Shown here in pieces: positions 11,850 through 58,366 of a stretch of 64,000 nt of DNA (the stretch's first letter is position 1; each line of letters begins with the position of its first letter). The notes under the pieces are model-generated. The model was not told the origin of the DNA. It searched no databases and saw only the letters and a list, made by a program, of their open reading frames with translations. The position numbers were made by a program, and so were the translations under genes. The DNA comes from Paramacrobiotus metropolitanus (Eukaryota; Tardigrada; Eutardigrada; Parachela; Macrobiotidae): positions 1,302,001 through 1,366,000 of the forward strand of contig NW_026570239.1 in the NCBI RefSeq assembly GCF_019649055.1, read 5' to 3'.

Positions 11850-13492
<1,643 letters not shown>

Positions 13493-20364: not shown

Positions 20365-23011
<2,647 letters not shown>

Positions 23012-24034: not shown

Positions 24035-24635
24035 TTAGTTGGTTACTTCTTTTCTTTTCAAAGTTATGGCCACGTGCGTTGCACACATAAGCACGGATGT
24101 GTAAAGCAATAAGCGGCATGATATCAGACAATATAATATGAAATTTATATGGTTAAACACCGAAGTAATTATGCTTTGGTCTAAATGTTTGCGGTACTCG
24201 GTCGTCATTTCGTTGATGGCCGATAGATTAACTCCGTTAAACTCCGCCACGGTCCACGGGTTGCCCATATATACGATTGGCGGCATAATATCTCGCCCAG
24301 AGATTCTGACCGCGAATCCGCGATACAGTTCAACAACAGAATGGGAGTGGGCTAAGGCCCGGCTTGGTTCTCCCTTGCGGCGCCGCCGATCGTGTACACG
24401 GATCCGATAGGTGCCGGGCAGTTGCTTCTTGATGACGAAACTATCGGCATGCAATCCAGCATAATCGTTGTGAATCAGATTATCACCGCTCAGGCTCTCT
24501 CCCCGACATTCCACGCGTGTCCGCCGTGGGCTATCCTTCAGCGGCACTTCGACCACCAGCTCCGTATATCCCATCCTAAGACCAAAGAGAATGATCCGAA
24601 TGTCATCGGACCGGAGCGTGACTTGAAGGCTTTAA
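24035..24635 (-). pseudogene. Astacin C-terminal exon, truncated copy
   Basis: Minus-strand translation LVVEVPLKDSPRRTRVECRG ... NDYAGLHADSFVIKKQLPGTYRIRV ... WTVAEFNGVNL matches the last ~150 residues of the intact astacins. The 5' part is absent: homology stops at about 24635, where a LINE 3' tail begins. It runs open, but without the rest of the exon or any catalytic exon it is a fragment. Confidence 0.82.
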
Positions 24636-27774: not shown

Positions 27775-30367
27775 ATGCATTCTCCATCTGCTCTGCTTAT
27801 TTCGGGGTTTCTGTGGATCGCTGGATCAATGTCCTCTCCGGCTGGTAAAGTATTCCTGTTTCCTCTCGCCACATTCAAATCTAGAATTTTAAGCATTTCC
27901 CTATTTTTTGAGACAGATGACAAACGTCTGTTGATCAACGATATCTGGGACGACGACGACGAGGGCAGCACCGGATACAATAGCTTCGTTTCCGGATCGG
28001 GCTATCTTGCACCAAGTGGCTACTGGCCCAACAACGGACATCAAATTCCTTACGAACTAGCAGGATTCGGTGAGCGGATCACTTAATAAAGTGGCAACAT
28101 ATTACATCAAATATCGTGATATTTGTGATTGGTATAATTCTGATCAGGTTGCATAGAGGAAATAGTTTTGTTGGGATTCATATTTTAGCTTTGTTTGCGC
28201 CTACTTCTGTCACACTGAAAATAGGTACCCAAATCAGCGCAGGGTACCTTTTGCCTAAAAGCCTACTTTTGCAAAACAGCGTAGAATTCACAATTGAACC
28301 ACTCGTCCCCTGTGATAAGAGCGATCGTGAAGGCTGCCCGCAAAAATGACTTTGCATAAATTTGCTTGTTCTCGCATCCCGGTTACGCTGCTATGTTTCT
28401 GCTAATTTCAGACACCGAACAAATAGATGTGATTGAAAGTGCGATGCAAACTCTAGAATTTCGAATCAGCGGCTGCGTAACATTCACGAAACGCATCTCA
28501 ACTCAGAAAGAATATATTCTGATCCAGCATCACACGGGATTCACGCCAGTGTAACCAATGTCGCTGCTTCACTGTACCCGTTATGAACCTCCCCGATTAA
28601 CTGTTGTTTAATAGATGTAAGGCAGACATTGGTCGAAGTAGTGGTCGTCCAACCAGAGTCAAACTGCATTCCCGCTGCTTGTCACCCGGGACCATCCAAC
28701 ACGAGATCTTGCACGCTCTAGGATTCCTACACGAACACAATCGCCCGGATCGGGACGATTACATCAGCATAGTACCCGGTAACATGGTGACCGATATCCC
28801 GGAGAGGAACTTCCGCAAAATGCCTCGAATGGCCACTTTCGGCCTTCCTTATGATTTAGAGTCGCTGTTGCATTACGGCCCTGAATTATCCAAGAGCCCC
28901 GACAAACCGGCCATTGTGTCCAAAGTTAGCAAACCGCCGCGATGGATGGGTCAAAAATACGGGCTCAGTCTACTGGATGTGGCCAGGGTGAAGGCTGCTT
29001 ACAACTGCATCCAGAAAGACGTTACTGCTGTGCCACAGCATTGCCCGAGGCCAGTCTGCTCTGACTCCTCTAAAGAAGGCGAGTACAGTAATTTTCAGTG
29101 ACTTTCAGGAAATTTGGTAAGTTCCTGGTTGTACAGTATCTCGTCAGAAAGCTTTTTGCTACGATATCGCCATAGCAGTGCCAAGTTTTGATGTTTTCGT
29201 TTCAAGGATCCTAAGTTGCGGGCGAGCGTATGCTTACAGCGGAACAGTTGGGTAGTTCAACGTATGTTGCAATTCGGCAACCGTTCTACCGTTAAAAAGA
29301 AAGTGTTGCTGTACAGATAGGCATCGGTTTCTTCCCGATTATTAATCGACGTACTGCTTGCAGAGCATAGAATAACAGCCGTTTGGTTATCCAGGAATGC
29401 TCAGACTTGGGATTCACTTAATAACGCAACGGTGTATGGCACTTTGAGAGATTCAAACGATCTGTTGTTTGACAGTCAAACCGCAACAACAAATGCTTTC
29501 GGTGAATTCACGTTGTCCTTACCAGTGAGGAGCATCTACACCATAACATTCGAGATGCACGGGTTCTTTCCGATTCATCTACATACTTTTCATCGCAATC
29601 TCAGGCTGGACGGTAAGGTAACCATGGAACCTTTGTTGTGGATCGACAAAACCTTGGCCGGAAACGGGACTGCCCATGGAGGCCTGAGATACATGGAATT
29701 TGGTAGCCATGATTTAGGTGTATATGCCCCTTTCGTAAATATCGCCATTCGTAACGGCCTGAACAATGTCTCTGGGTCTATTCTTGCGACAACCACCGCA
29801 AATGAAGATGGTTACTGGAGACAAAGTTTACCATCGGGATATTACACGGCGACTGTCACCGCTACAGGACACCTACCGAAACATTTCCCAGTCGTCGTTT
29901 GGAGTGGAGGCGGCTTTAATTCCGTTCAGTCCCTGATGCCTGACGTGTCTTACGATGACATTCGAATAATTCTCTTTAGTGAAAGACATCACACTTTGGA
30001 GCTTGTGGTGGAAGGGCCACTCCAAGACAGCCGGCAGCGGACACGTGTTGAATCTATCGGAGCGAGAATGAGCGCTGATAACTTGATTCACAACGACTAT
30101 GCTGGAGCCTGGGCCGATAGTACCGTGATAAAGAAGCAACTGCCCGGCACGTACCGGATCAGCGTGTACGATTGGCATCATCGCAAAGGAGTACAGAACT
30201 GGCGTTTGGCCAATTCCCACTCTGTTGTCGAAGTCTATCGCGGTAAAATTTTGTGGACAAAATATTATGTCCCCAATCGTATTGGCAACACGTGGAACGT
30301 GGTGGAGTTTGACGGAGTAAATCTGACGACCATCAATGAAATTACAACATTGTACCACAACACTTAA
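27775..30367 (+). CDS. Secreted astacin-family protein, 5 exons, 609 aa, Leu in Met-turn
   Basis: Exons 27775-27844, 27917-28069, 28412-28550, 28615-29078, 29364-30367 sum to 1830 nt, 609 codons plus TAA, with consistent phases (1,1,2,1). There is a signal peptide (MHSPSALLISGFLWIAG) and an Asp-rich stretch (NDIWDDDDEG), but no propeptide of the usual length. The catalytic core has [12 protein letters not shown] (150-161) and R-P-D-R-D-D-Y. The Met-turn reads S204-L-L206-H-Y208: Met is replaced by Leu. The C-terminal exon (277-609) carries FGEFTLSLPV..YTITFEMHGFFP and SGYYTATVTATG, which resemble carboxypeptidase-regulatory-like repeats. It then has LELVVEGPLQDSRQRTRVE...GTYRISVYDW, a jelly-roll-like tail. 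The intron 4 donor is GC (AAG|GCGAGT). Activity is likely but not certain. Confidence 0.87.
28615..29078 (+). CDS. Catalytic exon 4 of the 609-aa astacin
   Basis: Begins after a 64-nt intron (donor GT|GTAACC, acceptor ATAG) that is the same length in the sister gene at 45126-45759. It encodes the zinc motif, the SLLHYG turn and the domain end LLDVARVKAAYNC. It finishes GAAG before a GC dinucleotide where both relatives have GT. The intron position before Cys122 is shared with the 8-exon astacin, so it predates their split. Confidence 0.85.
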
Positions 30368-31374
30368 CTCGTTTTTAACCCAATCCTGGATCCTTATGGG
30401 TTTAAGATCTTCTTAATTGTATTGCACAATACCAAGCGTAGTACAGCTTACAAATCCGAGCCTATGTTTGCAACTGATGCGGGTAATATTATGAATTACT
30501 GTAAACTGAAAAAAGCAATGTTAAATGAAATTCGGTTGTGGTGGAACTGGTAAATCCAGATGACATAGTAGATTTTGTCAATACATGGAGCATTTTGCTA
30601 GCATTTTTATACAAAGAAGGTGCATTCTTTGCGCTTTTTTATCTGTGAGCCGATGAAATACGCAAGGGAAATGTGTTACGTAGTATTTGATACTTCACGG
30701 CACAAGTTTTTTTTGAAGTTTAGCATTACTGACCTACCGGAAGTTGTACTCTGCGAGATGCAACTTCCGTCGTTCTTCTTAACCGACACCTAGATTTCAG
30801 TGCTCATTATGTCCTGTGCATTGTCGGCATGCACTACCTCTTGCAGCTGTCTGCAGTGTAAGCCTTCCTGTTTTTCAAGTATCAAAGAAAGAAAGATCAG
30901 GAATGCGTTTTTGACACGAAAGGTCAACTAATAATAACTGTTTCGCTGATACTGATAGTGTTCCTGCTACGCGGGTGTGCTAATTGTCAATAAAATTAGC
31001 ATTTTTGCAAATTGAAACAGAATGCTGCTATACAGTGTCGGCTTATAAGTACAATCACCACTGTACTATAATTTTTTGCTAAGGGCTTTATAATAAATAT
31101 CAGTACAATAAAGAAAGTCTTTGTAAGGGCGGGACGCCCCGCCCTCCTGAGTAGCTATTCGCTGTTTCTGGGGATTTCCACCCCGCACATTGCTGCACTG
31201 TTTTGACGGATCTGAGCACAGTTGCACTGGCTGCAGAATCCTTCCTTGTTAGTCTGGTGTTGCTGCGCCACGGTGCGCATTAGATTCGGCATTAAAGCTT
31301 CATCCGCGTTCACCGCTGTTCGCTGTCGAGGACACGCGTGGCGCCCATACGGCCCCGCGTTATATCTTTGTTCG
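30368..31374. other. 3' flank of the + strand astacin; start of a duplicated segment
   Basis: 30500-30665 is the reverse complement of the astacin downstream block at 1480-1635 and 52990-53150. From about 30700 onward, fragments ('gcgggtgtgctaattgtcaataaaattagc') recur near 55400. No gene recognised. Confidence 0.5.
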
Positions 31375-31806
31375 ATAATGTTGCGAAAGTTTTACAGTTC
31401 GGGCATAATCGAAAATGCTTGTGTTATCAATCTGTTGCGAAAGCAGAAAATACCAATCCCGATAGTAATACGTGCTGATATTCCAATAACAAAAATTGCA
31501 ATATTACGGCATTCTGATGATATAAATTACGAAAACAATGAATTCGGAAACTTTAAATTTTATGCAAAGCAGACTTGTGGCGCCTGCCGCCTGGTAAAGT
31601 GCAAAACAACGGGCGCTAATACTGGCAGCTTTTCTCAGGGCTACGAATGCACAGAACGGGAATTATATTTGCTTAGTATAGCAAAAAGTATCAATTACGA
31701 CCGAAGAGAAGCAGCATCTGCTGCTTCAGTTTCCTTCAATCAGAGAAAAAAAAGGCCAGAGGCAGCCGGTCAAACACAGCAACAAAATATTGAACATTTT
31801 GCTTAG
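31375..31806 (+). CDS. Candidate exon of an unknown protein with a frame-conserved paralogue
   Basis: Open to TAG at 31804-31806. The middle part (LLRKQKIPIP ... DIPITKIAILRHSDDINYEN ... FGNF ... KQTCGACRLVKC) aligns with 53640-53790 on the same strand. There every length difference across ~150 bp is 3 or 6 nt and most changes are conservative (I/V, K/E, D/E). That points to former selection on protein. The second copy then suffers a 7-nt loss and stop. C-G-A-C-R-L-V-K-C resembles the end of a nuclear-receptor second zinc finger, but the other zinc ligands are not visible. Start and splice sites are unknown. Confidence 0.35.
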   Translation: MMLRKFYSSGIIENACVINLLRKQKIPIPIVIRADIPITKIAILRHSDDINYENNEFGNFKFYAKQTCGACRLVKCKTTGANTGSFSQGYECTERELYLLSIAKSINYDRREAASAASVSFNQRKKRPEAAGQTQQQNIEHFA

Positions 31807-32204
31807 AACCAACTTACTATAGTGTGAGAAGGACTGGTCACCTACCGTTTGACGTTATCACTCTCGCATACACGGGATGGCGGCTGACATGGCGACAGAT
31901 GCGCGTTTTTCACGATTTTTCGTAGTTTTTTCAGAATATTTCCTTTCTCTTCTATTTCTAGCCCTTCATGTTTGGGTTTTTTAATTCAATTATGATCTGT
32001 TAAAATATCAGAAAGCTTTAGAGGAGAAAGGAACTGAGAATATCTTTTAAAAAGGACAAGAAAATCTGTGGTCCTATGGTAAGCAATGGCACAGCAGTGC
32101 ATTCTGTATGCGACAGTGGTGACGTAGTCGACCGTTGCCCAGTCGGTTCCCAGTCCTTCTACCTATAGCAAGTTCTTGTTAGAACAATCAATTCTTGAAG
32201 TTTA

Positions 32205-32480
32205 ACTAAATCCGGCTATGGAACGCAATGTTGGAGCATGCAAAGAATATCTGTGCCTTTTATGGCTGGCTGGTGTTGTGCTTTCGCCAACCTTTACCGC
32301 GAACCCGCCTCTATTTCAATTGGCACTGCCGCTTACCCAGAAAACTATCTGATAACACTGCAAATTCAATGCGATTTTCCTAATACTACGTCCGTAATGT
32401 TACGTCCGTAATATTATGCTCGTATTATTCCGTACGTTTCCGTGCGATGAACACCCGGCTAATTTTAAGCCGTTTGCATT
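32205..32480. repeat. Copy of the upstream region of the 8-cysteine protein gene
   Basis: 'gtgctttcgccaac-tttaccgcgaac-cgcctct' and following sequence recur at 54720-54960 and 56880-57230. At 56880-57230 the block is the 5' flank of the intact minus-strand gene. No coding exon accompanies this copy. It includes a direct repeat of 'tacgtccgtaat'. Confidence 0.65.
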
Positions 32481-32723
32481 TAAACTGTGATGTTAGTAGC
32501 GTCGCGACCTACGGCTAACCGGCTGTTCATCGCAGCTCAGTCATGCAGGGGGTGTTAACAGCACCCAATGGTCCTCGTATTATAAATTTTTCTTGACATT
32601 TTCCATAGATTTTGCGGTGAGTTTTAGCGGTTATTCTGAACGGTGAAAACTTGTGCAGCTATGGAAAATGCTAAAATTAATCAAGGTATTTAATGTGGGA
32701 ATTGACATGCCGGTCATTTGCAG

Positions 32724-33632
32724 TTGTACTGTCTGTGGCAGTGGCTGCCGTTGCGGCACCGCATGCCAGCCGACGCTGCTGTACGCGTCGGAAGAGCACA
32801 ACGTCAGTCTGGTGACCTTTTTTCAGCAATGCGGGAATACCGAGCCCACTCTCCTCATCGCCAAGACCAAAACCAGCGACGTCTTCGGCGCCTTCTGCAG
32901 TCACAGCTGGGAGAACCGGCACCTGGGGTTCAGTCACCTGTAGTCATCATCCATTTATTCCTCCAAATATCATCATCACATAAATTTAAATAGATATAAT
33001 TCACAAGTAAATGCAACAAGTATAATTACTTCACTAGTAAAACTGAGAATTGACTAAAACGACGCTTACTTTTTGAAAGTGGTAGAATGCGATATTTGCA
33101 GCAATACTGTAGTGCACTGGCCGAAAGAAAGTCTCGCATTTTCACTCGTTTTCGGTAGCGTTCAATCGTAACAAAATCTGCTACTCATTGTCAACGATGG
33201 ACTTCGTGACTCGGGTTAGGCTTTTTTATTTTTTTACTGTGCAATTTAAAGCCTTTTTTATGCCAAAAACTGCGAATAATTTATGTGTATGATGAAACAT
33301 TCATCATGGGATATTCTGATGAATTCCTTAACATAGATTTACTTACTAGCGCAGAATACTAAGGGATTTAACTATGTACATTAAACTATCGTAAATTATC
33401 AGCGGAAAATGTTTTGGATAATTTAATATAGTGAATTGTTTTAATGAGTTAATTATCATAAAAAAATCAATGTAGGCTATGAGGATAAAAATTAAAAATG
33501 GACGCTTATCCAGATATTTTAATGGTTTGCGTGAAAACTGGATATTTTTTTCGGGGAACAATTTTGAATCATTTTGAAACCGGTTAGTCCTTTTTATTTA
33601 CGCTATTCCCCAAACATGAGATGCTTCAGAAT
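32724..33632 (+). pseudogene. TBC-TLDc pseudogene fragment, copy D
   Basis: The TLDc-start exon (32724-32928) opens LYCLWQWLPLRHR, parallel to the WSWVPERFALCQP region of vertebrate TBC1D24. It loses 2 nt, then continues QPTLLYASEEHNVSLVTFFQ ... FCSHSWENRHLG. The donor is TT instead of GT. About 600 bp later a stub of the last exon (about 33550-33630) jumps directly into the duplicated 3' flank, deleting most of the Gly-rich half. No linker exon is present upstream. Confidence 0.82.
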
Positions 33633-34131
33633 TACGACTGTCGAAAAACTGAAACAATGAAATTGTTCCATGTTTTGGATGTCTGGAGATCTCTCTTTTA
33701 ATGGCAGAAAATTTTCCAGGGAATTCTGATTGTTTCTCTGCATGCAAAAATTGCTGTTTTTGTGTATTTTCTGACAAATTTCGGGAAGAAATTTATTGAT
33801 TATTATCTCTTGGATGTCCTGGAGAATTGTGGAGAAATCGAGTTGTGATTCGTCTGTGCAGATTTTTAATTAATCTACCTAAGAAACTAAAGCAGTTTCC
33901 CTCATTCATACACACACAATTCAAGACAGTTTCTATTTCAGAAAAATGCGTTTGATGAAGCTAACGCTGCGCTTTCGTGTTTCCGTTCGGGGATTGTCGT
34001 TGGCCCGATTTTGCTTCTTTTGTGAGCGTTTGAATCCGCGCAAACATTCCACTGAGGTTGTTGAGTTCTGTTGTACATAAGCATTAGTCAAAGTCTGTCG
34101 CCACAATAACGGTCTCAATGTGATGATTTAA
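33632..34131 (+). repeat. Duplicated 3' flank of the TBC-TLDc gene (copy 3, left part)
   Basis: Collinear with 23225-23780 up to 'gatgatttaat', where it is interrupted. The remainder of the block resumes at 36976. The interruption therefore dates from after the module duplication. Confidence 0.75.
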
Positions 34132-34208
34132 TCGACCGGAGCTCAGCGAAGGTCCTCTAATTCAACAAAAAGGGAAAGCTGTCTGTCTGTCCGTTACGGA
34201 AGAGTGGA

Positions 34209-34285
34209 AGATCACTTCCTTATTACGCAATCACTTCCTTACTGCGTCACTTCCTTATTACGTCATCACTTACCTATCCCGTAAT
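34209..34285. repeat. Short tandem repeat, ~19-bp unit
   Basis: Four imperfect copies of 'atcacttccttattacgca'. An apparent TATAAAG lies 25-30 bp beyond at about 34307, so a promoter role (for instance of a retroelement) is possible but unsupported by any downstream gene. Confidence 0.6.
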
Positions 34286-35684
34286 TTCCGCATTAGCTTT
34301 ACCATATAAAGTACTCGGTGCGGGGATGGTAAGTCATCAGACCTAGCAAGTAAGTGAACAGAGTCCCAACTGTCCCGAGGATGTTAAGACAATCGCGCCC
34401 GAAGAGCAGAGACGGAAATGAGAGGCGAGCAAAGAAAGGTCACGCAGCCACAGGCAGAAAATAAACACACGTCCAAAAGCGGTTAAAAAATTCCAAGTGA
34501 CGCACAGTGGAGCTATGTAGCTTGCATACTGCTATTACGGCTCCAAAGAGCGGCAACAGCCGCAGATTTTCCAGTTCCGCTTTGGAACGGAAGATAAATG
34601 CTCTGAAATGCCTCTCTTGTACTGGAATTCGACTTGTCGCAGATTTTGATCACTCTGGATGTGGGTTTCCATCGGTAATAGGGTGTTAAAATTTCTTCAC
34701 CAAACGAAAATATATGAACAACTTTCTTAATGTACAACACCTGCTACGCCAAGTTCGGACAGTAACATATATTTCTCATCTGCGACCGTTGATATCTAAA
34801 CTTCTGATTTGATTTTTTTATGACAGATTACAATCAATAGCAACTTTCGAAATTATGTTTCTATGCAAAAAGCTACCATGCCGGAAACGGGAGCAAAAGT
34901 TTTACTAGAACTTTTTTTCAAAAAAACGCACTGCTTACGAAAAAATCACCATGTTCAATAGATAGTAGTTTAAAAATTCTGGAAAATTGGAAACTTCCAA
35001 GTGGTAATGCGATTTACAAACGGTCCCTTTCTAACATCTATTTAAGTACTAACATCTTCCCAAAAGCGATCAGCGTACTAGGCAGCCACATTCTTGGTAG
35101 GTACCTTTTAACATACAAGTCTATGGGTGACAGATCTTCCTTCGAGCTCACCTGGCGCACTAATCGCGTAGTGCTCTTTTGTTAGCCCGTGCTAGAGACC
35201 TTGTCGGTCAGTGGTCACTGAAAAGATTTCGATATTGTTCGCACAAAACTATTGGTTGGGAATTTTACGGGAGCTGCCGATATAAGCAGTTCGGTAATGA
35301 CCCTTACTCCCTAACCCTTTAATTTGCCCCTGTCTCCTCGCTGACAGATAAGAAGATTCCGAATTTAATATTGCCAGATTCGCGATAAAAAGTTATACTA
35401 GAAAAAATGAAAGAGCGACACAAAACAGGAAAAACGAATATTTTATAATTTATTTTCAAAAGTGTCCGAAGTTGGCGTAGCAGGGCTGTATTACAAAACT
35501 TCGCTCAATAAATTTTATCCAAAACAATTTGTTAAGAGGAAATGGGCTGGGCGCAGTGCAGGAGAATACTTGTACAAATTTCTTTCATCGTTCAACGTAA
35601 ACAAATTTCAAAAATTTCCCGTTTCTAAAAATTCTGGCTCGTTTTCGGGTCGTTTGGTCAGCGGTCATATATGCAACCCACCAT

Positions 35685-35785
35685 GCACTGGTGTAGTGGT
35701 TAGCCGGTCCCGCCTTTTTCACAGGGCCGCGGCCCTCGGCCCTGTGAGATCGAAGGGTCACGGCCCGGGATGTAGCCCGCAGTGA
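35685..35785 (+). repeat. tRNA-like / SINE-like sequence
   Basis: 'ggtgtagtggttagccgg' closely resembles a tRNA A-box region. 'gagatcgaagggtcacgg' about 50 bp later is a weak B-box (GATCGA instead of GTTCGA). Between them is a strong hairpin cacagggcc/ggccctgtg. It cannot fold as a normal tRNA with a clear anticodon, so a tRNA-derived SINE or a tRNA pseudogene is the best guess. Confidence 0.35.
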
Positions 35786-36975
35786 ACGACAGATGACAGT
35801 GCAGATGACAGCCTGGCGTTCTGGCCAGGCTGGCCTAACAAACTCTAAGCATGAGAAGTGGTAGCCAGCGACCATGCAGTAACAAAAGTATGAAAACGTG
35901 AATTTAAAGTAAACAAATATGCAACCAATGTTCGCCAGTGCTGAAACTGGGTTCGCATAATCAATGCGGCCATTGCAACAAGGTTACTCGAAGGACTCAG
36001 AAAATTATGAAGTGGATCCCGGATAGGTGTAATATTAAAGCCATAGAGGACCAAATGGTTGTCCGTGTCCATCCACTGATTTCTGTTTATAAGCTCGGGA
36101 AGCATTATTGACTTCCGCCAAGGTGCCGGCAGATTTGCCAAGACCTTGTCGCATCATTCTGCAACCCTGACGGAAAATTTTCGTCGAATTTTGTTCTTCT
36201 TTTTTACGACATATAGACGAAGAAACGCTTCAGTGGATCATGGGAAAACTTTTGAATATGTTATAATTATGTCTTATCAGTACTGTCGCGTAACTAAAGG
36301 TTAGCTGAGACTCGGTGGCTATGACCTTTATCTATTGCTAATTGCTACAACGTGAAAGCGGCGACAACTGATCCGACCCAACGACCTTTTATTCAGATTA
36401 GCAGACACAAACAACTCGAATGCTAACAGAACACATGCAATGCTAAAAAGGCAGATATTCCATGGGAAGTTGATCCGAGGCTGGCTGGTGATGTACTAAA
36501 TCATTTGACAACTTCATCACACACTACGTTTTTAGCCAGGCACTTAATACATGTTACGAGAGATAAAACATTGCAGACAACAAAGACACACTATTGGTTT
36601 ACACAATGATTCATTCCTTTCTTCACGCTCAATCATTTGCTTGTTATCGTCAAACCACAACCTTTGACTTGCTCACAACAACAAACTATCCTGCACTCAA
36701 CCACAACAACCAACCGCATTCAACCGCATCCGCAACTGTATACATTTTAAGCACGCCCGTTATGATGATGAATATGTATGTGATTCATGATGCATGCTGC
36801 TCATGACCCACAGAACACGCTTGCGCTATATACTCGCGCAACAGTACATTATATTATTAATTTATTATAAAAAACGCAACGACTAGCCAAGTATTGTGTA
36901 CGCGTCAAAAAATTACTTCCAATCCTTAACGTTGCGCTCGGGTCAACTAATGCACGCAATAGTGCATTTTCCTAG

Positions 36976-37170
36976 TTATTTTTTGTCCGTTTGTGCGCTC
37001 CGCATTGGCCGCTGTACAGGATTGCGCCTGTTCCTGTTGTAACGTTTTTCTTAACCTATGTGCCAATGTGTTTCCTAATGGAATCTACTGAGTAGTCATT
37101 TTTTTCGATACGTAATGATACCCCTGTAATAAGCGGCCTAGCTCGCTTGTGGAATAAAACTAGTTGTAAA
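36976..37170 (+). repeat. Duplicated 3' flank of the TBC-TLDc gene (copy 3, right part)
   Basis: 'gtccgtttgtgcgctccgcattggccgctgtacagga' continues the block interrupted at 34131 and matches 1100-1240 and 23790-23950. Confidence 0.75.
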
Positions 37171-38969
37171 ATTAATTATTAATTACGCTGTTTCTAATAA
37201 AAAAATATTTAATATAATAATTAAAAGTAAATAAAAACGTCCCGACAGAAGCTAAAAAATCGGTTTATTGGAAACAAACTAATTAGGATGTCGAAGGGAA
37301 ACAATCATAAGAAAAACGTTGGAACAGATAAATGTTCAAAATACCGACAATGATAACAGGTAATCAGCGAACATGCAGGACGTCGCAAATGTTGAACTAG
37401 TAAAATCGTCCATTCTGAAATACCCAAAATCGAATGAGTCGATAATGTCGTGTTTGGGCAAATTTGCGGCACGCGGAAGCAAAAAATCATTTTCCGTTAT
37501 GCATTTCTTCAGTTATCAGGCAAACGCGATGAATGCACCATTTTTTTGTGTGGTATGTCTACGGTAGTAAATTAAACCGGGAAGGCGTGGACGGACAAAA
37601 TTCTTTGTGACCAAACAAAACCTTTTTTTCTACTTCTTTGTTAGTAACCACGTCAGACGCAAACAATCGTACGGATGTGCGAGTATAAAGCAATACCTTG
37701 CATGATATCAATTAACACAGAGAAAAGATGGCTAAAGACAAAAGAATCATAGTTTGGCTCAAGTGTTGTGGAACACTGTCGTCATTTCATCGATGGTTGT
37801 TAGGTTTACGCCGTTAAACTCCGCCACGATCCACGTGTTGCCAACACGATTGGGGACATAATATCTCGCCCACAGATTCTTACCACGATACAGTTCGACC
37901 ACTGAAAGGGAATCAGCCAAGAGTCTGCTCTGTTCTATCTTGCGGTGATACCAATCGTACACGCTGATGCGGTACGTGCCAGGCAGTTGCTTCTTGATGA
38001 CGGTACTGTCGGCCCACACTCCAGCATAGTCGTTATGAATAAGCCCGTCCGTGCTCAGTCTCGATCCCAGACAGTCCACACGTGTGCGCTGTTGGGTGTC
38101 TTGCACAGGCCCTTCGACTACCAGCTCCATATATCCCATCCTAACATTAAAGAGAATTATCCGAATGTCGTCGTAAGACATGTCAGGCATCAGTGACTGA
38201 ACGGCGTGTATGCTGCCTCCGCCCCAAATGACGACCGGGAAAGATTTCGGTATGTATCCAGTCACGCTGACAGTTGCCGTGTAATATCCCACTGGCAGAC
38301 TTTCGCTCCATTCACCATATTCGTTCGTTGTGGTGGCCACGAGAATAGGCCCGGAAACAATGTTCAGGCCGGAACGGATGTTGACAGTTACCAAAGGCGC
38401 AACAGTTTCATCGCCATGGCTGTCAAATCGCATGTATTAGAGATATCCCCAGCCTGTCCCGTTTCCGGTCAATTTTTTGTTGATCCACAACAAGGGCTCC
38501 ATTGTAATCTTACCGTCCAGCTTGAGATCGCGATGGAACTTTTGCAGAATAATCGGAAAGAATCCAGGAATCTCGAAAGTAATGGTGTAGGCCTTCACCG
38601 GTAAGGACAACATAAATTCTCCGAAAGCATTCGTTGTTGCAGTTTGACTGTCAAACAGCAGATCGTTTACATCTCTCAGAGTAGCATACACCGTTGCGTT
38701 ATTGATTGACTCAGAAGTCTGAGCATTCCTGGATAGCCAGGTGGCTGTTGTTCTTCGGTCTGCAAGCAATCAGTTGGATTTTGCTAAAAACCAAACCGGA
38801 AAACTCATCGCAATAACTTGTAGTTAATTTGCTTCCAAATCCCAGTTACTCTGCTGGATCAGTGTTGACAAACTGTGACCGCCAGATGAACCTGCATCAC
38901 TGTCAGGTCCGGCCGCTGCCCGCCCCCAACCGGGCATCGTGCACGTTACAAAGAACACGGACCACCATG

Positions 38970-39330
38970 TGCGAATTTGCCGTACACAAAACTCTGCGGC
39001 GCCAGTTCATCTAGCAGGCACAGTACGCTGCCCCATACTTACAACCACACGAAAATGAACCGGTCTTATCTGCCTCGCATGACGGCATCTGCGACACTTT
39101 CGCCACCAGCTGGTGCAACGTATCAAGTAGTTCGCATTCGGGGTTAGTACGCTGGCCAGATCAGTGGCGGCAGCAGTGCGAGAGTGACGGCTTTTTCTGT
39201 CCGCCGGCAGGTGTGGAATTTCGTAGCAAGGGCACGATAATCATTGCCATACCAATGCTGGCCACCCTGTGTTCCAGTTTCATAGAGCTCTGTCTAATAG
39301 CATTTCCGCACGACGTCCTCCAGTGACGTC
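38970..39330 (-). other. Exon-like block upstream of an astacin last exon
   Basis: Minus-strand reading shows LYETGTQGGQHWYGNDYRALATKFHTCRR (39310-39220), a stop, then in another frame LLDTLHQLVAKVSQMPSCEADKTGSFSCGC followed by GTAAGT. The second part has a relative at 2895-2970. It does not match astacin, TBC-TLDc or the Cys-rich family. It may be relic exons of an additional gene in the module. Confidence 0.3.
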
Positions 39331-39417
39331 ACTGCAAGCCGTATGGATGCTGTGTCGGTGGGGACTTCACTGATCCCTCATTTTGTCCCAGTGGCGAGCG
39401 CAGCAATCTGCCTACTA

Positions 39418-39541
39418 ACCAGGGCACAATTTCCGGGTCCAAATTCAGAAAACTCTCATCTTTTCCAGAAAATTATGCTACCCTGGCATAATTAAAAAAA
39501 ATAATTTCATCTGCTGAGGTCCAAAGGGCGTGGCCAAACAA
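39418..39541. repeat. ~120-bp inverted repeat, left member
   Basis: 'agggcacaatttccgggtcc ... aaagggcgtggccaaaca' is the reverse complement (about 75-80% by eye) of 44466-44590. A third, more diverged member lies at 52690-52813. The pair encloses 5 kb with the foldback and LINE-2. The outer CAGGGCAC end looks hAT-like, but I see no matching 8-bp flanks. Confidence 0.7.
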
Positions 39542-39789
39542 GTTACGTAAATAGAGTACTCAGTACACCACATAATACTAAATACAGTTAGCATTCTCTG
39601 GTGCAGCATTTGTGCCAGCTGTTCTCTTAATGATAATAAAATAATCAGAAAATTCTAATCTTGTGTACGTAGAATAGTAGCACACCGTTATAATATGCTT
39701 TAAATAAATTTATGTGGGAAGGCTAGGTCGACGCACGTCAAAACCTATTGGAAATTGCTGCTCAGTGAGGTACGAGTACTGCAACAAAA

Positions 39790-40540
39790 GATTACATCTT
39801 ACAGGGGTAGTAGTACGTAGTTCGTGTTACCGGTACTGGTAGTGGTACTATGCAGTTTGCACTGTTACTGGTAGTGGCACTGGTTGTGTTAGCGGTGCCA
39901 TGCAATGGTACTGGTAATTGTACTGGTAGCCATTACGATACGGTACGTATGCCGGTAGTAGCCGTATGCTGGTAGTGGCATCAGCAGTCAGCACTCGCAA
40001 CGATGTTTAAAGTGCCGATGTTAAAAGTATTGTTGTTACGAAGCGCGTGTCACTTGTTATCTATTGTACGTAAAAGTCACTGCTGTGTTCAAATTGTTTT
40101 ATGTTGCTCTCACTTCGGTAAATCGATTACAGTTGTCACTAACTACCTAACGCACTTTTTGAACTGTACTAGGAAATGGAAAAAGTCTTTTTTAACTTCT
40201 CTATTCAGAGCCAGTATTGTGGTACTGATACTGTACTATGCAAATCATTTTTATGTGTTTATTTAAATTAAATAATAACGTGACTCTGCGTCGAAAAACT
40301 TATACTGTGTTTCAGCAGTATCGGAACAAAGCAATAGTCAAAACGCTTTGACCATTGACGGTTTTATCCATTAAGACGTCATGCTATGCCGATAATACTA
40401 CCGGCATACGTATCGTAATTGCTACCACTACCAGTACTAGTACCATAACATGGTATCACTAACACAACCCGTAACAATATTGTACCAGTACCAGTAACAT
40501 GAACTAGTACTACATGTAACCCCTATCACGGAGTAAATAC
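39790..40540. mobile_element. ~750-bp foldback element with ~180-bp arms
   Basis: The left arm (39790-39975) and right arm (40370-40540) are inverted copies built of 'ggtactggtagtggtac'-type units: 'acgatacg-tacgtatgccggtagta' on the left against 'tactaccggcatacgtatcgta' on the right. The ~390-bp middle carries an 87-codon ORF of no recognisable content. Long, internally repetitive arms are typical of foldback transposons. Confidence 0.75.
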
Positions 40541-40707
40541 TGCCAGAGTGCCAATGCCACTGTATGCATTTTGCAGATCCCTTTGTATCACCTTCTTCCC
40601 TCAAACTCGTGAAATACGAAATGAAGTACGAGGCAAGTGTCCCTTAAATTATGTAATAGACGCGTTATTCACATTATCATAGGTTAAAAGCAAAATTACG
40701 CAGTTCA

Positions 40708-43700
40708 TCATTTCAACACATAATACACTTCGTCAAGTCTCTTACCGATACAAAACGTTTCCTGAACACAAGCAGCGTTGCCTTGCATTAAAGCAATACT
40801 AATTCTCTGCTTAAGAAACTGAGTGGACCGTTTCTCCTGTGTCTTCACAAAAAGCATCTTACCGAGTGTAGACATCTTACATTTCGATTCTTTACCCCAC
40901 ACACCCATTGTTTCAAAAACCAAAGCAGAGAAATTAAAATTATCGCGTAAATATCCGTGCTTATGGTTTTTCTTCGCCTCCGCCATGGTGGCGGCAGCGC
41001 CGGCTTCCTGGGATGTTTTGGCGATGTAGCTGGTAGCCATGGTATCCGTGCAGGTGACATCCCACACCCAGGATTTTCCTTGGCTGAAGGGAACTGAGGT
41101 CATGCCATCCGGCCTTTTCTGGGTATCGCGGTAAAGGCCTGGTGGCTCGAGAACGGAAGGGATACTGGCTGACCCACAGGCGCGATGAATCACATCTCTG
41201 ATTTCGTTATGACGGGAAATTTTCGCTTTCAGACGCTTGCATCCTAATCCGTGATATCCCCATTTGTCAACATTGCTGCCGCATTTGCACCGGTGTTCGA
41301 TGCATACTGGGGCACCGATGCGCTGCGCAATGGATATCCTAACTTCCGTATTTGACAACATAGTGCCGAGGCTTGCCACTGGGACTGCATTAAGCCACAA
41401 CCCAGACTCAGGCTGGGACACAGCTAGCAGCCGGGCTTTCTGGTTAACAGAATCGGTTTGGCGAAAAACTGCTTCTTTCTGGTGAAGAACCACCGGGATG
41501 TCCCAAGCACGCTGCGAAGCACGCCAATCTTCATCAGGGAGTTCCGCGGGCCCCATTGATTTCCAAGCTTGTTCCGCACATGTTGTATATGCTTCGGTGT
41601 ACAGGTCAGTCATGTGTGGCACCAGCGAGCGCACCGAATTGACCGAGGCAAGGAATGCCGGAGCTGCTAGACGTTCGGTGCGCCTGATGCCCAAACCGCC
41701 CACCCGGACCGGTAAGGACGCTTGTTCCCAGATTTCGTCAGTAATGCTCACGTTGGTAATTTTTTCCAGACGGTTGCGTACAGCAGAATCGAACTTCGTA
41801 AGGATTTCCGGAAAACTGAAGGCGTCACTAGCTCGTAGAAGGTGCATCAGTTTAGGAACGGACAGGCAGTTCTTCAGGAGAAAGAGTGCCTGATGGGATG
41901 GCAAAAGGGGCAAACGAGATATCATCTTGTTTACCATACCGACTTTCTCTTCCAACAGTGGGCCGACCGATTCACGTGTGATCCCTGCACCAAGGAGGAT
42001 GACGGCTTGCTCGGTGAGACGCTTCATGCTTGGGTAACGCTGGACGAAAGCTGCTTCGGTCTGCGCGCGCTGTTTCGGGCTTCCTCCACAGATGTAAAAC
42101 TCACATTTTTCTTCGTTGAGTTGCAGTCCCACTTCAGCTGACATTGCCCGAACCGTGTCGACGTCTTCGCACACTACATCGAACTCTCCTCCGAAAGTAA
42201 CATCATCAAGAAATGAAACTTTTAATGTGGATTTCAGAGCTTTTGATATGGGCAGCGTAACGAGGCTGTAGAGCAGGGGTGCTGACGGGTCGCCCTGATG
42301 AAGTCCTTCTTCGGATTGGATAATATGCTCCCCGAAAGCCAAAGAAGTTGGCTTACCGTAGCCCTGATTAAAAAACTGGAAATATTCTGGCATTTCGGTT
42401 TTAACCATCTCTAGGATTTTATGCCGATAAGCACAATTAAAGGCGTTCGCGAAATCCAACTTAACAAGTACACGGCATTCACCGTTCTGACTAATAAACA
42501 TGCGCGTAGCGTGTACGGCAGCCTCGGCTCCCTCTTTCACACCGAATCCAACTTGAAATGGAAACAGCTTTTCTACCATACGCTCTTTCACTCTGCGACA
42601 AATGATTTTTGATGCGATGCGGCGGATCGTATTACCGACAGCAATGGGGCGAATTCCGCCGTTCGGTTTTTGAAGTCCAGTAAGCGTAGCGCCATACAGG
42701 GAGGGAAGGATTTCCTCAGGTACATCCCCCGAGATCATCTTCGTCACGGCACCTGCAAGTGCTGAGCAAAGTCTTTTTTCGTGCTCGTTCGTTCCGTGTC
42801 CTATCAGTAGTGATGTGCTACTACAGCTTCCTGCTACTTTACTTAATATTTACTAATCTTCCAAAAATTTTACTTATTATTACTTACTATTAACTTCGAA
42901 ATTTTTCAAATACTTACTATTCCCATTTTCCCAACCAATTACTTACTAATTATACTAAATAAATTATTTAATTTTTAATTCAATGTTATTTTCATATTTG
43001 GGACGCTTATGCATTTCATGAAGAAATAAAAAATAATAGACTTTACTCTATGCAAATCTAAGGTGTTAAAGCAAAATCTAGCATCTCAGCTGGACTGCAC
43101 ATTTGGCTTGCCAGGCTGCTGCTACATTGCAGTGTTTCACATCCGTATACTTAATTTTACGAGTACGTAACGTAACCGCAGTTTCGGGTTGGCGGTACGT
43201 TGCGTTTACGTGAACAGCAATACCACCGTCTGTTAAGGCACTCACTTTAGTATGCAACATGGTTAACGATAAACCTGCCCCAGTACAGCAATGAGTCTAA
43301 TCGCTAAAATTCGATTAGCAAATGATTATTAGTATATAACTTTTATTTAGCGAAAGCCAAAATCTTACTATTTACTTACTATTTACTATTGTAGCTGAAT
43401 ATTTATTACTTTTACTAATTTTGTATGGAAAACTTTACTGTTTACTACACATTTAATTTTAGGGAAGCTTTTACTAATTAAATAGCATTTATTTAGTTTT
43501 ATTTAGTAGCACATCACTGCCTATCAGGTCTTTTACGTGTTGAGGGCGCATACCAAACAGACCTCCTGAGGATCCGTGTGGGAAAGACCGGACGGCGTCG
43601 AGTATTTCATCAGCGGTAACGTCAGAGATCAAGAATTGTGCTTGGGGCTTGTCAACCGGTGTCGCATGGGCACACGCCCGAGGATGCTTCTCCTGCAACA

Positions 43701-44328
43701 ACAGCGCCGATTCTGGGGTTGGGCGAATAACATTATCCGTCGAGCATAAGGCTTTAACTGCGGCTGAGATAGCACAGTCCTGGAACTTGCTATTTACTCT
43801 TCGTGCAATGGCTTCGTTAGGGTTGGATGCAGCCTGGAGGGGACGGTTGTGGAGAACGGGAGCCGCGCCACCGCCAGTGAGATTTAGACGTAGGGCAGCG
43901 GTAACAGATAACTCCGTTTTCTCTGCTGGTAGGCGAAATATTTCAAACGCAAAGGTGCTTAGCTTCGTCCATGCCACAGGTGTGTTGTCTGTACAGCATT
44001 CGCTAAGCACCGTGCACAAATCATTAGCAATGGAGGTTCGTAACGCTCGGGGAACCCGGGGAGCCAACGGAGTAGCAGCACGGAGCTTTGCCAGTGTTTG
44101 AGCCTGGTTTTCGCACAACACAGTGGCGGGGATCGCAGATTTTGTTGTAGGGAGGATGTTTCGTTCTTTACTTGCTTGGGTTTTCAGACAAGTCGATTTG
44201 TTGCGATGTAGATCCAGACGGGTGAAGAGCTCTCCGCAGTCTGGGCAGGCAACTGGCTGTTTCACTGACTGGGATCGTGTAGAAGCCAGGGTTGCGCTCG
44301 AAGAGGGAGAAACGATGTTAGTCTCCAT
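40708..44328 (-). mobile_element. RLE-type LINE (LINE-2), ORF intact except for a hAT insertion
   Basis: The N-terminal piece 44328-43520 has a C2H2-like finger (CPDCGELFTRLDLHRNKSTC). It ends at GMRPQHVKDLIG, where a 712-bp element is inserted. The second piece runs 42799-40708. Omitting the insert and one 8-bp target copy leaves a continuous frame of 966 codons. The second piece has GGIRPIAVG, VKLDFANAFN, EEGLHQGDPSAPL and SFLDDVTFGG. It ends in a zinc knuckle (CKCGSNVDKWGYHGLGC) and the R-P-D ... W-D-V-T-C nuclease motif. It is the same family as 16843-19718 but a distinct lineage. It lies within intron 4 of an astacin gene in the same orientation. Confidence 0.92.
42808..43519. mobile_element. 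712-bp hAT-like non-autonomous element in LINE-2
   Basis: Terminal inverted repeats: left TAGTGATGTGCTACTA, right (reverse complement) CAGTGATGTGCTACTA. It is flanked by an exact 8-bp duplication CCTATCAG at 42800-42807 and 43520-43527. The interior is AT-rich with many 'ttactatttactta' motifs near both ends and no transposase. The reading frame of the host LINE is restored in its absence, proving it is a later insertion. Confidence 0.94.
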
Positions 44329-44465
44329 AAATCAGCAGAGGAAATATCAGCAGAGAAATGAAGTATTTTAAGCGTTTAACGGACGTAAATTTGGCAAAAG
44401 CTGAGATTTCTCTGAAGTATTATTACCACGTAAACTGCATTGTAACAGTATGTAGTAATATGTAA

Positions 44466-44590
44466 TTTGTTTGGCCACGCCCTTTGAGCCACAGCAGATG
44501 AAAATATTTTTTTATTATTCCAGATTGGTATATTACTTTTCTGCAAAAGACGAGATTTTTCCGAATGTGGACCCGGAAATTGTGCCCTTG
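44466..44590. repeat. ~120-bp inverted repeat, right member
   Basis: Partner of 39418-39541. It starts 'tgtttggccacgccctttga' and ends 'ggacccggaaattgtgccct'. It lies 138 bp beyond the LINE-2 start codon, so it may be outside the LINE and belong to an older element into which the LINE inserted. Confidence 0.7.
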
Positions 44591-45125
44591 TAAGTTGTGT
44601 CGAATTAGACCAGGGACTCGGGGTGTGCGTTTTCACTTGTGTGCCTACAAGTTTAGGTAACATGCAAGCCATACAAGTGCTGCCACTTTTAGATGGGCCA
44701 AATTGGCAGATTTGCTGGGTATGGGTGCACGCGACCGCTTAGTCTTAAAATGTAGTACCATGATATGTGAACCAAATTTTTAACGAATATAAAATGTTAC
44801 GATAGTATGAATAATATGCCCTAGAGCAGATCCTTGTTTACAGTGAAAGTGCTTACATCATGCATTTCCCCAAACCGCCTTAAGCGTCAGAAGTGTAGAA
44901 CGCTAGAAGCGTAATCACATGCATGCATTGTCGTCTCCTGTACACCGTTTGCTATATAAGAGTTTCTCTTTCACTGGTGCAAAACCATTCTACCGCTGAG
45001 CAATACATGGAATAAAGGCTTACGCAAACCACCGTGTATCAAAAACTTAGAAATTTTGATTTAATAGCGTTCAGCGTTCATTTTGCCAATACATATCTGT
45101 CCTGAAAGTTACACCAGTGGCTCAC
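44591..45125. other. Remaining astacin intron 4 sequence
   Basis: No repeats or genes recognised. It belongs to the long intron between astacin exons 4 and 5 (minus strand). It contains 'ctatataagag' at 44950, which I would not call a promoter without a gene. Confidence 0.4.
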
Positions 45126-46568
45126 CTTCGTTACGAGTGTCAAGAGGAACAACTGCAGCAGCCTTCTGGATGCAGTTGTAAGCTGCCTTCACCCTGGCCA
45201 CATCTGACTGGCTGAGGCCGTACATCCAACGCGGCGGTGTGCTCGCTTTGGAAGCAATAGCCGGTTTGTCGGGGCTTTTGGATAACTCGGGACCGTAATG
45301 CAGCAGCGACTCAACGTCGTATGGAAGGCCGAAGGTGGCCATCTGAGGCATTTTCCGGAAGTTTCCTTCGTGGATGTCGGTCACCATGTTGCTGGGCACT
45401 ATGTTGATGTAGTCGTCCCGATCCGGGCAACTGTGTTCGTGGAGGAATCCCAGCGCGTGCATCAACTCGTGCTGGATTGTGCCCGGTGACAAACAGCGAG
45501 AATGCAGTTTGATTTTGGTGGGATGACCCATAATGCGCCCAGTGTCCGCTTTGCATCTGTTAAACAATGCTTGCTCGAGAAAGTTCAAAAAAGGTACAAT
45601 GCAATTGCGACGATGGTTACACTGGCGTGAATCCCGTGTGATGCTGGATCAGAATGTATTCTTGCTGGGTTGGAGTGCGCTTTTTGAATGATACGCAGCC
45701 GCTGACTCGCCATTCCAGAGTTCTGATCGCACTTTCAATAAGAGCTATTTGTTCGGCGCCTAAAAGTTATAAGAAAATAACATCTCTACTTTAACCATAT
45801 TACGGAAATAAAGAATTCAAGATTTCGAAACTGATAGTCATCGCCGTCGCTCTTTGCTTACGGTAGAACCACGATGTAATGGAGTACTTTGCGCATGTTG
45901 GATAACATGTGGTAAAAAGGTTATATTGCCCCGAACGGAGTCCTAATGAAAAGTTTAGAACTATTATGCAGAATAATAAGCTCGAGAACTTTTGGCTGCT
46001 AAATTTTGGAAAGGCATTCTAAGTTTTTTCGAGCAGCTAACGCAGAATACGAAGGAAATTTGTTCGGCGATTTGCAGTCCAGAATATAAGAAACGCGGCG
46101 GCGAAGGTGTTTCTTGTATACACGGTAACAATGTTGCTTTTATTTTAGGTTATGTTTACAAGTTCCGCGCTTACTGAACCCTGCCAGTTCGTAAGGAATT
46201 TGTTGTCCGTTGTTGGGCCAGTAGCCGCTCGGTGCAAGATAGCCCGTTGCCGGAATGAAACTATCGAACCCGGTGCCGTCGTCGTCATCGTCCCACATGG
46301 TATCGTTTAGCAGCAGAAGTTTGTCATCTGCATCAAAAATTCACCGAAAAACTTCGAAGCGCGAACTAAATGTCGCACGAGGAATCAAAAATGCTTTACC
46401 AGACGGAGACGATAATGTTCCGGCAATCCTCAACAGCGCCGAAATAAGCAGAACAAGTGGAGAATGCATTCCTCTACCTTGAAGTACTTAAAACAGTCGT
46501 TGCGTACACTGCTGCGCAAACAGGCTTGTACACCTGTCTTCTGTCTCAGCGTAAACAGAAAGAGAAAA

Positions 46569-55899: not shown

Positions 55900-56810
55900 T
55901 TACCAGATGGTTCCGTCTTTTCTAACATCCGGACAGGCGTTGCGCTGGCGGCACGGGATGTAGGGTCCATCAGGAATAGTCGCCTTTGGCTCCTTAGTGC
56001 ACGGATCCTCTGCATAACACCCAGACTTTACTTGATTGCTTTCGCACTATAAATTGCCGTATACGACACCACCGATGTTCTGCTTTAAATTCGGAATTAA
56101 AAAAAGTTCAAGTGGTAGCGCATAAATCACAACTGTATTTTGTTATCATAATGTTGATTACTGTATTAACGGCATCGACCAAAACTCCGCGTATCTGTAA
56201 GTCTTTGGATTACGACGAAATTATTAAAAAACCTTAGCCTGTGACGAAAAAAATTGTGATTATGAATGTAATTCAGACTTAGGAGCAACTGGAATGAAAG
56301 CTAATTCTACATAGTAGGCCACCTCACAGAGAAAGGCAGTATCGGAGAGATGCGAGTACCTTGCCATATCTCGCCAGCCGTTGCGTAACGATCCGCGTAG
56401 GGTTCCGTTTGGTTCACAGGTGACAGATGGAAGCGGTACGGCAGGACGTCGCGGATTGTGCGTTTATTCATCCAGGCCCAGTGGTGGGCGAAGCAGCACT
56501 GCGACTGCACGAAGTCGCTGGTCTTGTATCCGGCCACGCAGTCATGACAGTGAGGATCGCCGTCCACGGGGCACCGCTTCTGCCCCGGCAGCAAAGTGTC
56601 ATCATAGATGGACGGCGAGCCCTTGGAGGTTCTGTAAAGCCAACCACTTGGTTTGTGGTTGCTGCCGCCATTCGGCCAAGGTTGTTCGATGCGGACGTAT
56701 GGTGTGAAACCGGGAGATTGATTTGCCGGGATGGTGTACTTGATGTCGTCGGCATTGACGGTTGAAAGCCAGAGGCTGCCGGTCATACACAGCAAGAAAA
56801 CACGAAACAT
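55900..56810 (-). CDS. Secreted 8-cysteine protein, 2 exons, 186 aa, unknown family
   Basis: Exon 1 56810-56360 (451 nt) and exon 2 56009-55900 (110 nt), with a GT-AG intron in phase 1, total 186 codons plus TAA. Start chosen at 56810 because MFRVFLLCMTGSLWLSTVNA is a clean signal peptide and the paralogue starts at the same place; an upstream ATG at 56858 is less likely. The mature part begins DDIKYTIPANQ. It has eight cysteines in the pattern C-P-V-D-G-D-P-H-C-x2-C ... Q-C-C ... P-C ... P-C ... A-C, the last three in exon 2. No transmembrane segment or known domain is recognised. An extracellular, disulphide-bonded role is inferred. Confidence 0.78.
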
Positions 56811-56879
56811 TGTACTTGGAATAAGGTAATATACCGATAAGCTTCCGTTAAAGCACACTGTTTGAGCTGCAACGGATTT

Positions 56880-57604: not shown

Positions 57605-58366
57605 ATGTTTGGCATTCTGCTGCTGTGTATAACTGGTTTGGCAGTGTCTATGACCGTCAAAGGCGACGACATCGAGTACACCATCCCGGCAGGACAACCG
57701 TCCGGCATCACACCATACGTCCTCATCCAAAACCTTGGCCGGCCGGCCTAAGCAACCGCGGCCACGTGGACGAGATTGGTGGGCATGGAGTTAACATGGA
57801 GCAGTATTTCGACAACCGTCTCGGACCCGGGGAAGTCAGGTGCCCGGTGGACGGGTATCCTCATTGTCGTGACTGCGTGGCGGGATACAACGACAGCGAT
57901 TTCGTGCAATCGCAGTGCTGTTTCGCGCACCACTGGGCCTGGCAGCATAACCGCACCCTCCGCGATGTTCTTCCCTACCGCTTCCATTTGTCCCCCGTGA
58001 GCCAGACCGAACCCGTCGAGTATCGCGACCGGTACGCGACGGCTGGCGAAATATGGCACGGTACGCGCAACTGGTGCACTGTCTTTGCAGTGCGGTAATA
58101 TGCACTTTTGTCACTGATAAGTAATTTATTTGTGCGGGTGTAAAGCAAAGTGTTTTTACTTGGTATGCATGGCATTTCCGGCGGAACATCCGTTTTGTCG
58201 CGGAATTTAAACTGCACTAGCAATTTGTGCTTACGGTTTGGGTGTTTATGCAGAGGATGTGTGCACGAAGGAGCCTATCGCGACACTTCCTGAAGGAGGC
58301 TACATCCCGTGCCGCCTGCGCAACGCTTGCCCGGACGTCAGGAACGAAACAGGAACCATATGGTAA
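57605..58366 (+). pseudogene. 8-cysteine secreted protein paralogue with a single frameshift
   Basis: Exon 1 57605-58060 (donor GTACGC) and exon 2 58254-58366 keep the splice sites and phases of the intact gene. MFGILLLCITGLAVSM is a signal peptide. All later blocks are present (GEVRCPVDGYPHCRDC, QSQCCFAHHWAW, RTLRDVLPYRFHL, IPCRLRNACPDVR). Exon 1 is 456 nt where 457 is needed: one base is missing near the A-run at 57731-57735, giving TAA at 57748. It is either a very young pseudogene or an assembly error. It lies head-to-head with the intact gene, about 0.8 kb apart. Confidence 0.8.

Follow-up and report, generated by a model that had tools for sequence, protein, structure and literature searches.

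Must the Met-turn of a working metzincin contain methionine? The residue has been called invariant and was noted in more than 700 members of the group, why it is kept is an old question, and mutants have given mixed results (as far as the available text of PMC1266349 goes). The question is raised by an astacin-like gene of the tardigrade Paramacrobiotus metropolitanus, lying at 27775-30367 (+) of the 64,000-nucleotide stretch of DNA analysed here (the window, C19:1302001-1366000, where C19 is the window's own contig), in which the turn reads SLLHY. This main gene was compared with further astacin copies in the window and throughout the 169.8 Mb assembly searched, loci being labelled L001-L148 in this genome and L176, L211 and L213 in bacteria. 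The leucine is real, recurrent and, in the window lineage, selectively maintained, and it is not confined to the three copies described in an original prediction from the window. Our interpretation, drawn from sequence comparison, is that it is probably a tolerated, recurrent change in a probably working enzyme of a greatly expanded astacin family.

Leucine at the Met-turn

A six-frame scan of the window located in-frame SLLHY sequences, each with HExxHxxG upstream, at 28862-28876 (+) in the main gene and at 45295-45309 (-) in a second copy (the 45 kb copy), and a further SLLHY at 13001-13015 (-). The last of these belongs to a copy that we consider broken, since its zinc motif and turn sit in different frames. 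All three copies of the original prediction were thereby found, and the zinc histidines, Glu and ligand Tyr were read as retained. The window's other astacin keeps Met, as had been reported, its SIMHY being read at 6005-6019 (-). The tally of three holds only within the window: a fourth Leu copy, 82% identical, lies outside it at C19:1460071-1460544.

In the main gene the leucine is encoded by TTG (28868-28870). Across paralogues on several contigs the residue is encoded by TTG, CTG, CTA, CTC and CTT, with TTA in one row lacking the zinc site. This spread of one residue over different contigs and codons means that it is due neither to chance nor to a base-calling slip.

Gene structure and family membership

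The main gene comprises five predicted exons encoding 609 amino acids and is apparently intact, with intron phases 1, 1, 2 and 1. Exon 1 (27775-27844) holds the start codon and a hydrophobic N-terminus, judged by eye to resemble a signal peptide, and is placed by its frame and a phase-1 GT donor. Exon 2 (27917-28069), recognised from homologous exons, carries a short acidic pro-segment, LINDIWDDDDEG, with a putative switch Asp, followed by the start of the catalytic domain, WPNNGHQIPYEL. The N-terminal half of that domain continues in exon 3 (28412-28550), assigned from the homologous exon in relatives and from phases 1 and 2. Exon 4 (28615-29078) bears the zinc helix with the zinc-binding HEILHALGFLH (28700-28732), the family Glu, the Met-turn and the C-terminal helix of the catalytic domain; it is supported by PF01400, substitution ratios and Foldseek. 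A phase-1 GC-AG intron is predicted at 29079-29363, at a junction where relatives carry a GT donor, and exon 5 (29364-30367) encodes a CarboxypepD_reg-like C-terminal region (PF13620, 1.7e-10) and the stop codon. The 609-codon model was reproduced exactly only with the GC-AG last intron, a GT-AG alternative giving 600 amino acids. We prefer the former because its acceptor, TTGCAG, precedes the same C-terminal exon in all six C19 copies compared (L039-L043, L047); a stop codon lies just upstream of that exon in five of the six. Read by eye, L012-L015 have GT at the apparently homologous phase-1 place of the last intron.

PF01400 (Astacin) scored 113.2 bits for the main-gene exon at 28604-29101 and 96.1 bits for 45112-45588, against a curated cut-off of 22.5. 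Zinc ligands, catalytic Glu, family Glu, ExxRxDRD, turn Ser, ligand Tyr and four catalytic-domain cysteines (in SGC, VCK, RCL and YNC) are all present, the three cysteines of exon 4 being invariant across eight aligned sequences. The M12A astacins are defined, in the available text of PMC9848320, by HEXXHXXGXXH followed by EXXRXDRD, and the main gene contains both in that order. Compared with a SIMHY-type turn, SLLHY supplies the Ser, the His and the zinc-ligand Tyr, with Leu in place of Met. The gene departs from the strict metzincin Met-turn, although its homology to astacins is certain. Judged on its remaining features and its nearest paralogues, it is an astacin by descent, divergent at one listed residue, and not a typical member.

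A structure of the zinc-helix half was modelled from 36 rows (two window copies plus 34 bacterial sequences), with a mean predicted local distance difference test score (pLDDT) of 83. Foldseek searches with it gave 23 PDB matches at E <=0.001, all to the astacin family, the best being meprin alpha (8e-11), with crayfish astacin at 2e-7. Conservation of the Met column in the same 36-row alignment is 90% or more.

Frequency in the genome and in bacteria

Genome searches with PF01400 and the main-gene exon yielded 118 loci read among the matches listed (L001-L038, L069-L148), split-exon astacins falling mostly outside this census. The 101 domains of at least 95 amino acids have Met at the turn in 66 cases, Leu in 25, Gln in four, Val in two, Thr in two, and Ile and Arg once each; the 17 shorter loci have Met (nine), Leu (six) or no turn (two). 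The Leu Met-turn is not private to the window lineage. The zinc site, taken as kept where the pattern HExxHxx[GV]xx[HY] is matched, is intact in 69 of the 101 (Met 49, Leu 17, Val 2, Ile 1), or strictly in 68, since in L109, the Ile row, the third ligand is Tyr. It is lost in the other 32 (Met 17, Leu 8, Gln 4, Thr 2, Arg 1). Some Leu rows are near-copies of one another (L028, L029 and L032; L036 and L037). A whole-genome pattern count, on which we do not rely, gave 144 Met-type and 39 Leu-or-Phe-type turns, the reversed patterns giving 0 and 2.

Apparent pseudo-astacin clades were also seen, in which zinc-site residues are lost (HLVLH, MVIMR etc.; for example L075, L079, L084, L103, L117 and L120). 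Several zinc-less astacin domains lie in long open frames.

For comparison, 80 bacterial loci were found by conserved peptide patterns. Met is present in 79 (53 by pattern, 25 by eye, plus L176), Glu in one and Leu in none. The sole locus without the turn Met is L211, which reads SVEHY. The difference between 17 Leu of 69 zinc-intact rows here and 0 of 79 in bacteria gives a Fisher p of 7e-7, the rows being related and not independent. No relative was found in the viral contigs searched. In this genome, places of MMPs were also located, and PF00061 had two matches, of which the better is similar to ordinary fatty-acid-binding proteins.

Origins of the leucine

A tree was made from 67 zinc-intact rows with the Met column masked and the long rows L108 and L109 excluded. 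Leu involves seven changes on the best tree, at least five of them forced by well-supported branches; changes were counted unrooted, and such counts cannot by themselves separate gain from loss. Trees with a single change made up 0% of 200 bootstrap trees, and a single origin, with all 17 zinc-intact Leu rows as one clade, was rejected by the approximately unbiased (AU) test (p 8e-41). A quick tree of all 101 rows agrees, with 12 changes, at least four of them forced.

The window gene, the C19:1460071 copy and the 45 kb copy form a clade with support of 100/98. For the C19 copies on the tree, among which the broken 13 kb copy is not included, this bears out the earlier proposal that the change is older than the duplications. 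The nearest relative of this trio on the tree is L012, which has Met and the same pro-segment, its placement being weak (92/54). The other relatives around the trio have Met as well (L013, L015-L017, L019-L024), L014 alone having Leu, and Leu is therefore likely to be derived around the trio. Uniting the trio, L014 and the C21 SILHY group in one clade was rejected (p 1e-6). A clade of the trio and L014 is compatible with the data (p 0.48), so that L014 may share the origin of the trio or have one of its own.

Selection on the catalytic exon and the Met column

The ratio of nonsynonymous to synonymous divergence (dN/dS) in exon 4, calculated by the Nei-Gojobori method (NG86), is 0.124 between the window gene and the C19:1460071 copy (dS 0.58; bootstrap range 0.064-0.210, with none of 2000 replicates >=0.5). 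The window gene and 45 kb copy give 0.109, and the 45 kb and C19:1460071 copies 0.140. The comparison of dN/dS that had been suggested for the Leu copies, run here on these three, thus gives 0.109-0.140, and purifying selection therefore acts on the Leu catalytic exon. A pair of Met copies, L013-L015, gives 0.174, so that the value for the Leu pair, 0.124, is no higher. Constraint is weaker in the C-terminal region, where dN/dS is 0.29-0.46 over 15 pairs.

Counted per column on the tree of 67 rows, the Met position has changed eight times and ranks 40 of 127. No change falls on the turn Ser, the family Glu, two of the three cysteines or the Tyr-Asp that precedes the turn, and a single one falls on the ligand Tyr. 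In a bacterial quick tree of 79 rows (L213 left out) the Met column has one change, ranking 14 of 123.

The pro-segment

Loss of the ordinary propeptide had been proposed for the main gene. This did not survive comparison: a short pro-segment is present in exon 2, and its Asp is found in 21 of 21 readable loci. Searches with tblastn recovered homologues of exon 2, 67-75% identical, in L011, L012, L014 and L016; in Met relatives the segment reads LLRNDIAWEDEDDG (L012), LLLNDIIWDDED (L016), LYFNDVIWDDEDDG (L023) and FLHGDILMDD (L020). No exon-2 match was found by tblastn for L010, L013, L019, L024, L026, L027 or L038. At every readable locus, whether of the Met or the Leu type, the Asp is followed by Ile, Val or Thr ahead of the acidic stretch, L025 and L031 not being comparable at this position. 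The alignment spans the Asp in 13 loci, the window gene included, and there Gly or Asn always precedes it. In eight further loci it begins just past the Asp; the sequence upstream reads Asp-Ile in all eight, and the residue before it is Gly in L035 alone, the other seven having Ala, Lys or Asp.

This Asp may correspond to that of the FXGDX aspartate-switch motif. On the plain reading the window gene would have a short pro-segment of the usual kind, in which an aspartate switch was already present before Leu arose. According to the available text of PMC9848320, it is the aspartate of a pro-segment motif that holds the zymogens of animal astacins. An acidic or part-acidic segment lies behind the same Asp in the Met relatives L012, L015-L018 and L020-L023; a segment that they have in common, and that is consistent with an aspartate switch, does not point to altered activation.

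Apparent exchange of C-terminal exons

Downstream of the catalytic exon, the window gene and the C19:1460071 copy have the CarboxypepD_reg-like exon (PF13620), for which the genome search gave at least 71 matching stretches. In L012, L013, L014, L015, L016 and L021 there is a mutually homologous open stretch, 29-67% identical, which weakly resembles leucine-rich repeats (LRR; LRR_8 6.8e-5 in L021 only, below the cut-off, and no family in four of the six). L023 is followed by immunoglobulin domains (Ig_3 1.1e-26). A conserved catalytic module thus seems to have exchanged one C-terminal exon for another, with the phase-1 intron as the presumed site, each catalytic and C-terminal pair being expected to form one transcript. 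It is the CarboxypepD_reg-like exon, not Leu, that sets the C19 copies apart. Leu occurs with both types, the Leu gene L014 having the LRR-like one; the C-terminal swap and the Leu change are accordingly separate events, and a link between them was rejected. Structure prediction for the C-terminal region gave a pLDDT of 35, and comparison with PDB sequences two weak matches (best E 0.048).

Tolerance, selection or decay?

We suggest that the window gene encodes a secreted M12A zinc endopeptidase, its catalytic domain complete and followed by the CarboxypepD_reg-like region, which its short pro-segment would hold latent through the aspartate switch. Met would have changed to Leu before the C19 copies duplicated. 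Leu would still supply the hydrophobic floor beneath the three zinc histidines, and for this reason the enzyme should fold and probably work. Across the family there would have been several independent changes from Met to Leu (or Val), the position having been freed with the other catalytic residues held. The data show the residue, its recurrence, the predicted gene anatomy and purifying selection; splicing, secretion, Asp-switch latency and activity are inferences, as is the view that Leu is tolerated and not favoured. A broader proposal, that Met has been released from constraint family-wide here and that working enzymes repeatedly use Leu or Val with the other catalytic residues fixed, perhaps after an older compensating change, is tentative, a possibility somewhat short of probable; if it is true, function in vivo does not depend on a methionine in the Met-turn.

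The same recurrence could mean that Leu was selected, returning again and again as it tunes stability or kinetics, for example in an oxidation-proof or a slower, shorter-lived protease. At least five forced changes and the strong bias towards Leu among zinc-intact non-Met rows (17 Leu, 2 Val, 1 Ile) speak for this. However, Met to Leu is a conservative change of one base (ATG to CTG or TTG), Leu is what tolerance would also give, and a coupled-change scan produced only five supported independent pairs, its output unranked; we consider selection for Leu unlikely. Less likely again, and in our view improbable, is that the Leu copies are on the way to pseudo-proteases, in which case losing Met would be an early stage of active-site decay. 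The genome does hold many astacin domains without a zinc site (32 of 101), non-Met residues are somewhat commoner among them (15/32 against 20/69 in zinc-intact rows, Fisher p 0.11) and two of the three window copies have lesions. Leu itself, however, occurs no more often without the zinc site (8/32) than with it (17/69; Fisher p 1.0), so that a link with zinc-site loss was rejected; moreover, Met is kept in 17 of the 32 zinc-less rows and the intact Leu gene is strongly constrained.

The original prediction saw Leu and the acidic segment as joint marks of a distinct subfamily with altered activation, and the two are indeed found together in the main gene, in the 45 kb copy and in L014. Such a subfamily now appears very improbable, given that the segment is shared with the Met relatives listed above and that Leu recurs in separate, remote astacin clades. 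As for sequencing error, which had been raised as another source of the Leu, the variety of Leu codons on several contigs and the purifying selection on these genes led us to reject a base-calling slip, an assembly error or chance, and the same codon variety disposes of a reassigned Leu codon; nothing was found in favour of any such artefact, and we put its likelihood at virtually nil.

Tolerance of Leu in a probably working enzyme remains our preferred interpretation. Among the mutants in the available text of PMC1266349, replacement of Met by Leu or Ser in MMP-2 caused only minor perturbation, which speaks for it, and M226L in protease C was stable but kinetically compromised; since that mutant lost performance, Leu may cost activity. 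Further points weigh against tolerance. The final intron of the main gene requires a GC donor, and tblastn found no exon-2 match within 1.5 kb upstream of the C19:1460071 copy. The zinc ligands' lack of changes on the tree is by construction, because the rows were chosen by their zinc motif. Finally, the proportion of Leu (25 of 101) was compared with bacteria only, a phylogenetically remote set by which the frequency among animals is not calibrated.

Among the matches listed in the literature searches, where subscription journals mostly fell outside, no natural Leu Met-turn was found in astacins. The 20 natural variants among 69 zinc-intact rows (near-copies included), arising by several changes and accompanied by Met sister paralogues, offer ready-made paired comparisons. 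Such enzymes would be missed or wrongly judged if annotation relied on the SIMHY motif.

Other features of the window

The catalytic exons of the 45 kb copy lie at about 46328-46176, 45754-45620 and 45588-45112 (-), and the Arg of its ExxRxDRD reads Cys. A C-terminal region with one in-frame stop at 37762-38691 (-) probably belongs to it, to judge by order and strand. Between the two, at 40708-44328 (-), are retroelement-like open reading frames (ORFs), recognised by eye from their likeness to an ORF at 16923-19718 (-) that matches RVT_1 (8.7e-15); another was noted by eye at 21278-21931 (-). The broken Leu copy occupies 13001-13185 (-) and the SIMHY astacin, of another type, 6005-6415 (-). 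Further copies of the C-terminal region, some broken, are found at 2100-2702, 3678-4694 and 24035-24574 (-).

A long simple repeat at 20578-21312 can be read in three frames as ORFs made of Tyr, Ile and Leu, which are spurious. ORFs at 56307-56858 (-) and 57625-58098 (+) have in common a Cys/His-rich segment, CPVDG.PHC.DCVAGY..SDFVQSQCCFAHHWAW, with no Pfam match. A serpin-like exon at 61970-62332 matches PF00079 at 7.7e-4, under its cut-off.

Comparison with known systems

With M12A (PF01400) the main gene shares HExxHxxGxxH, ExxRxDRD, SxxHY with its ligand Tyr, the four cysteines, the short pro-segment and the fold of the zinc-helix half (meprin alpha, HCE-1, BMP1, astacin); it differs in the Leu at the Met-turn and in the CarboxypepD_reg-like C-terminal region. 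The Met paralogues L012, L013, L015 and L016 have a catalytic exon 61-75% identical to that of the Leu gene and, except for L013, where none was found, a homologous exon 2 with the acidic pro-segment, but they differ in their SIMHY or SLMHY turn and LRR-like C-terminal exon. The engineered mutants of MMP-2 (Met to Leu or Ser) and protease C (M226L, M226A, M226I) described in the available text of PMC1266349 include the identical substitution at the same structural position; those were made in the laboratory, whereas here the change is natural, old and recurrent. Inactive ADAMs likewise depart from the metzincin consensus within an expanded family. According to the available text of PMC11266112, however, they lose zinc or Glu residues and typically conserve the Met-turn, the opposite of what is seen in the Leu copies described here.

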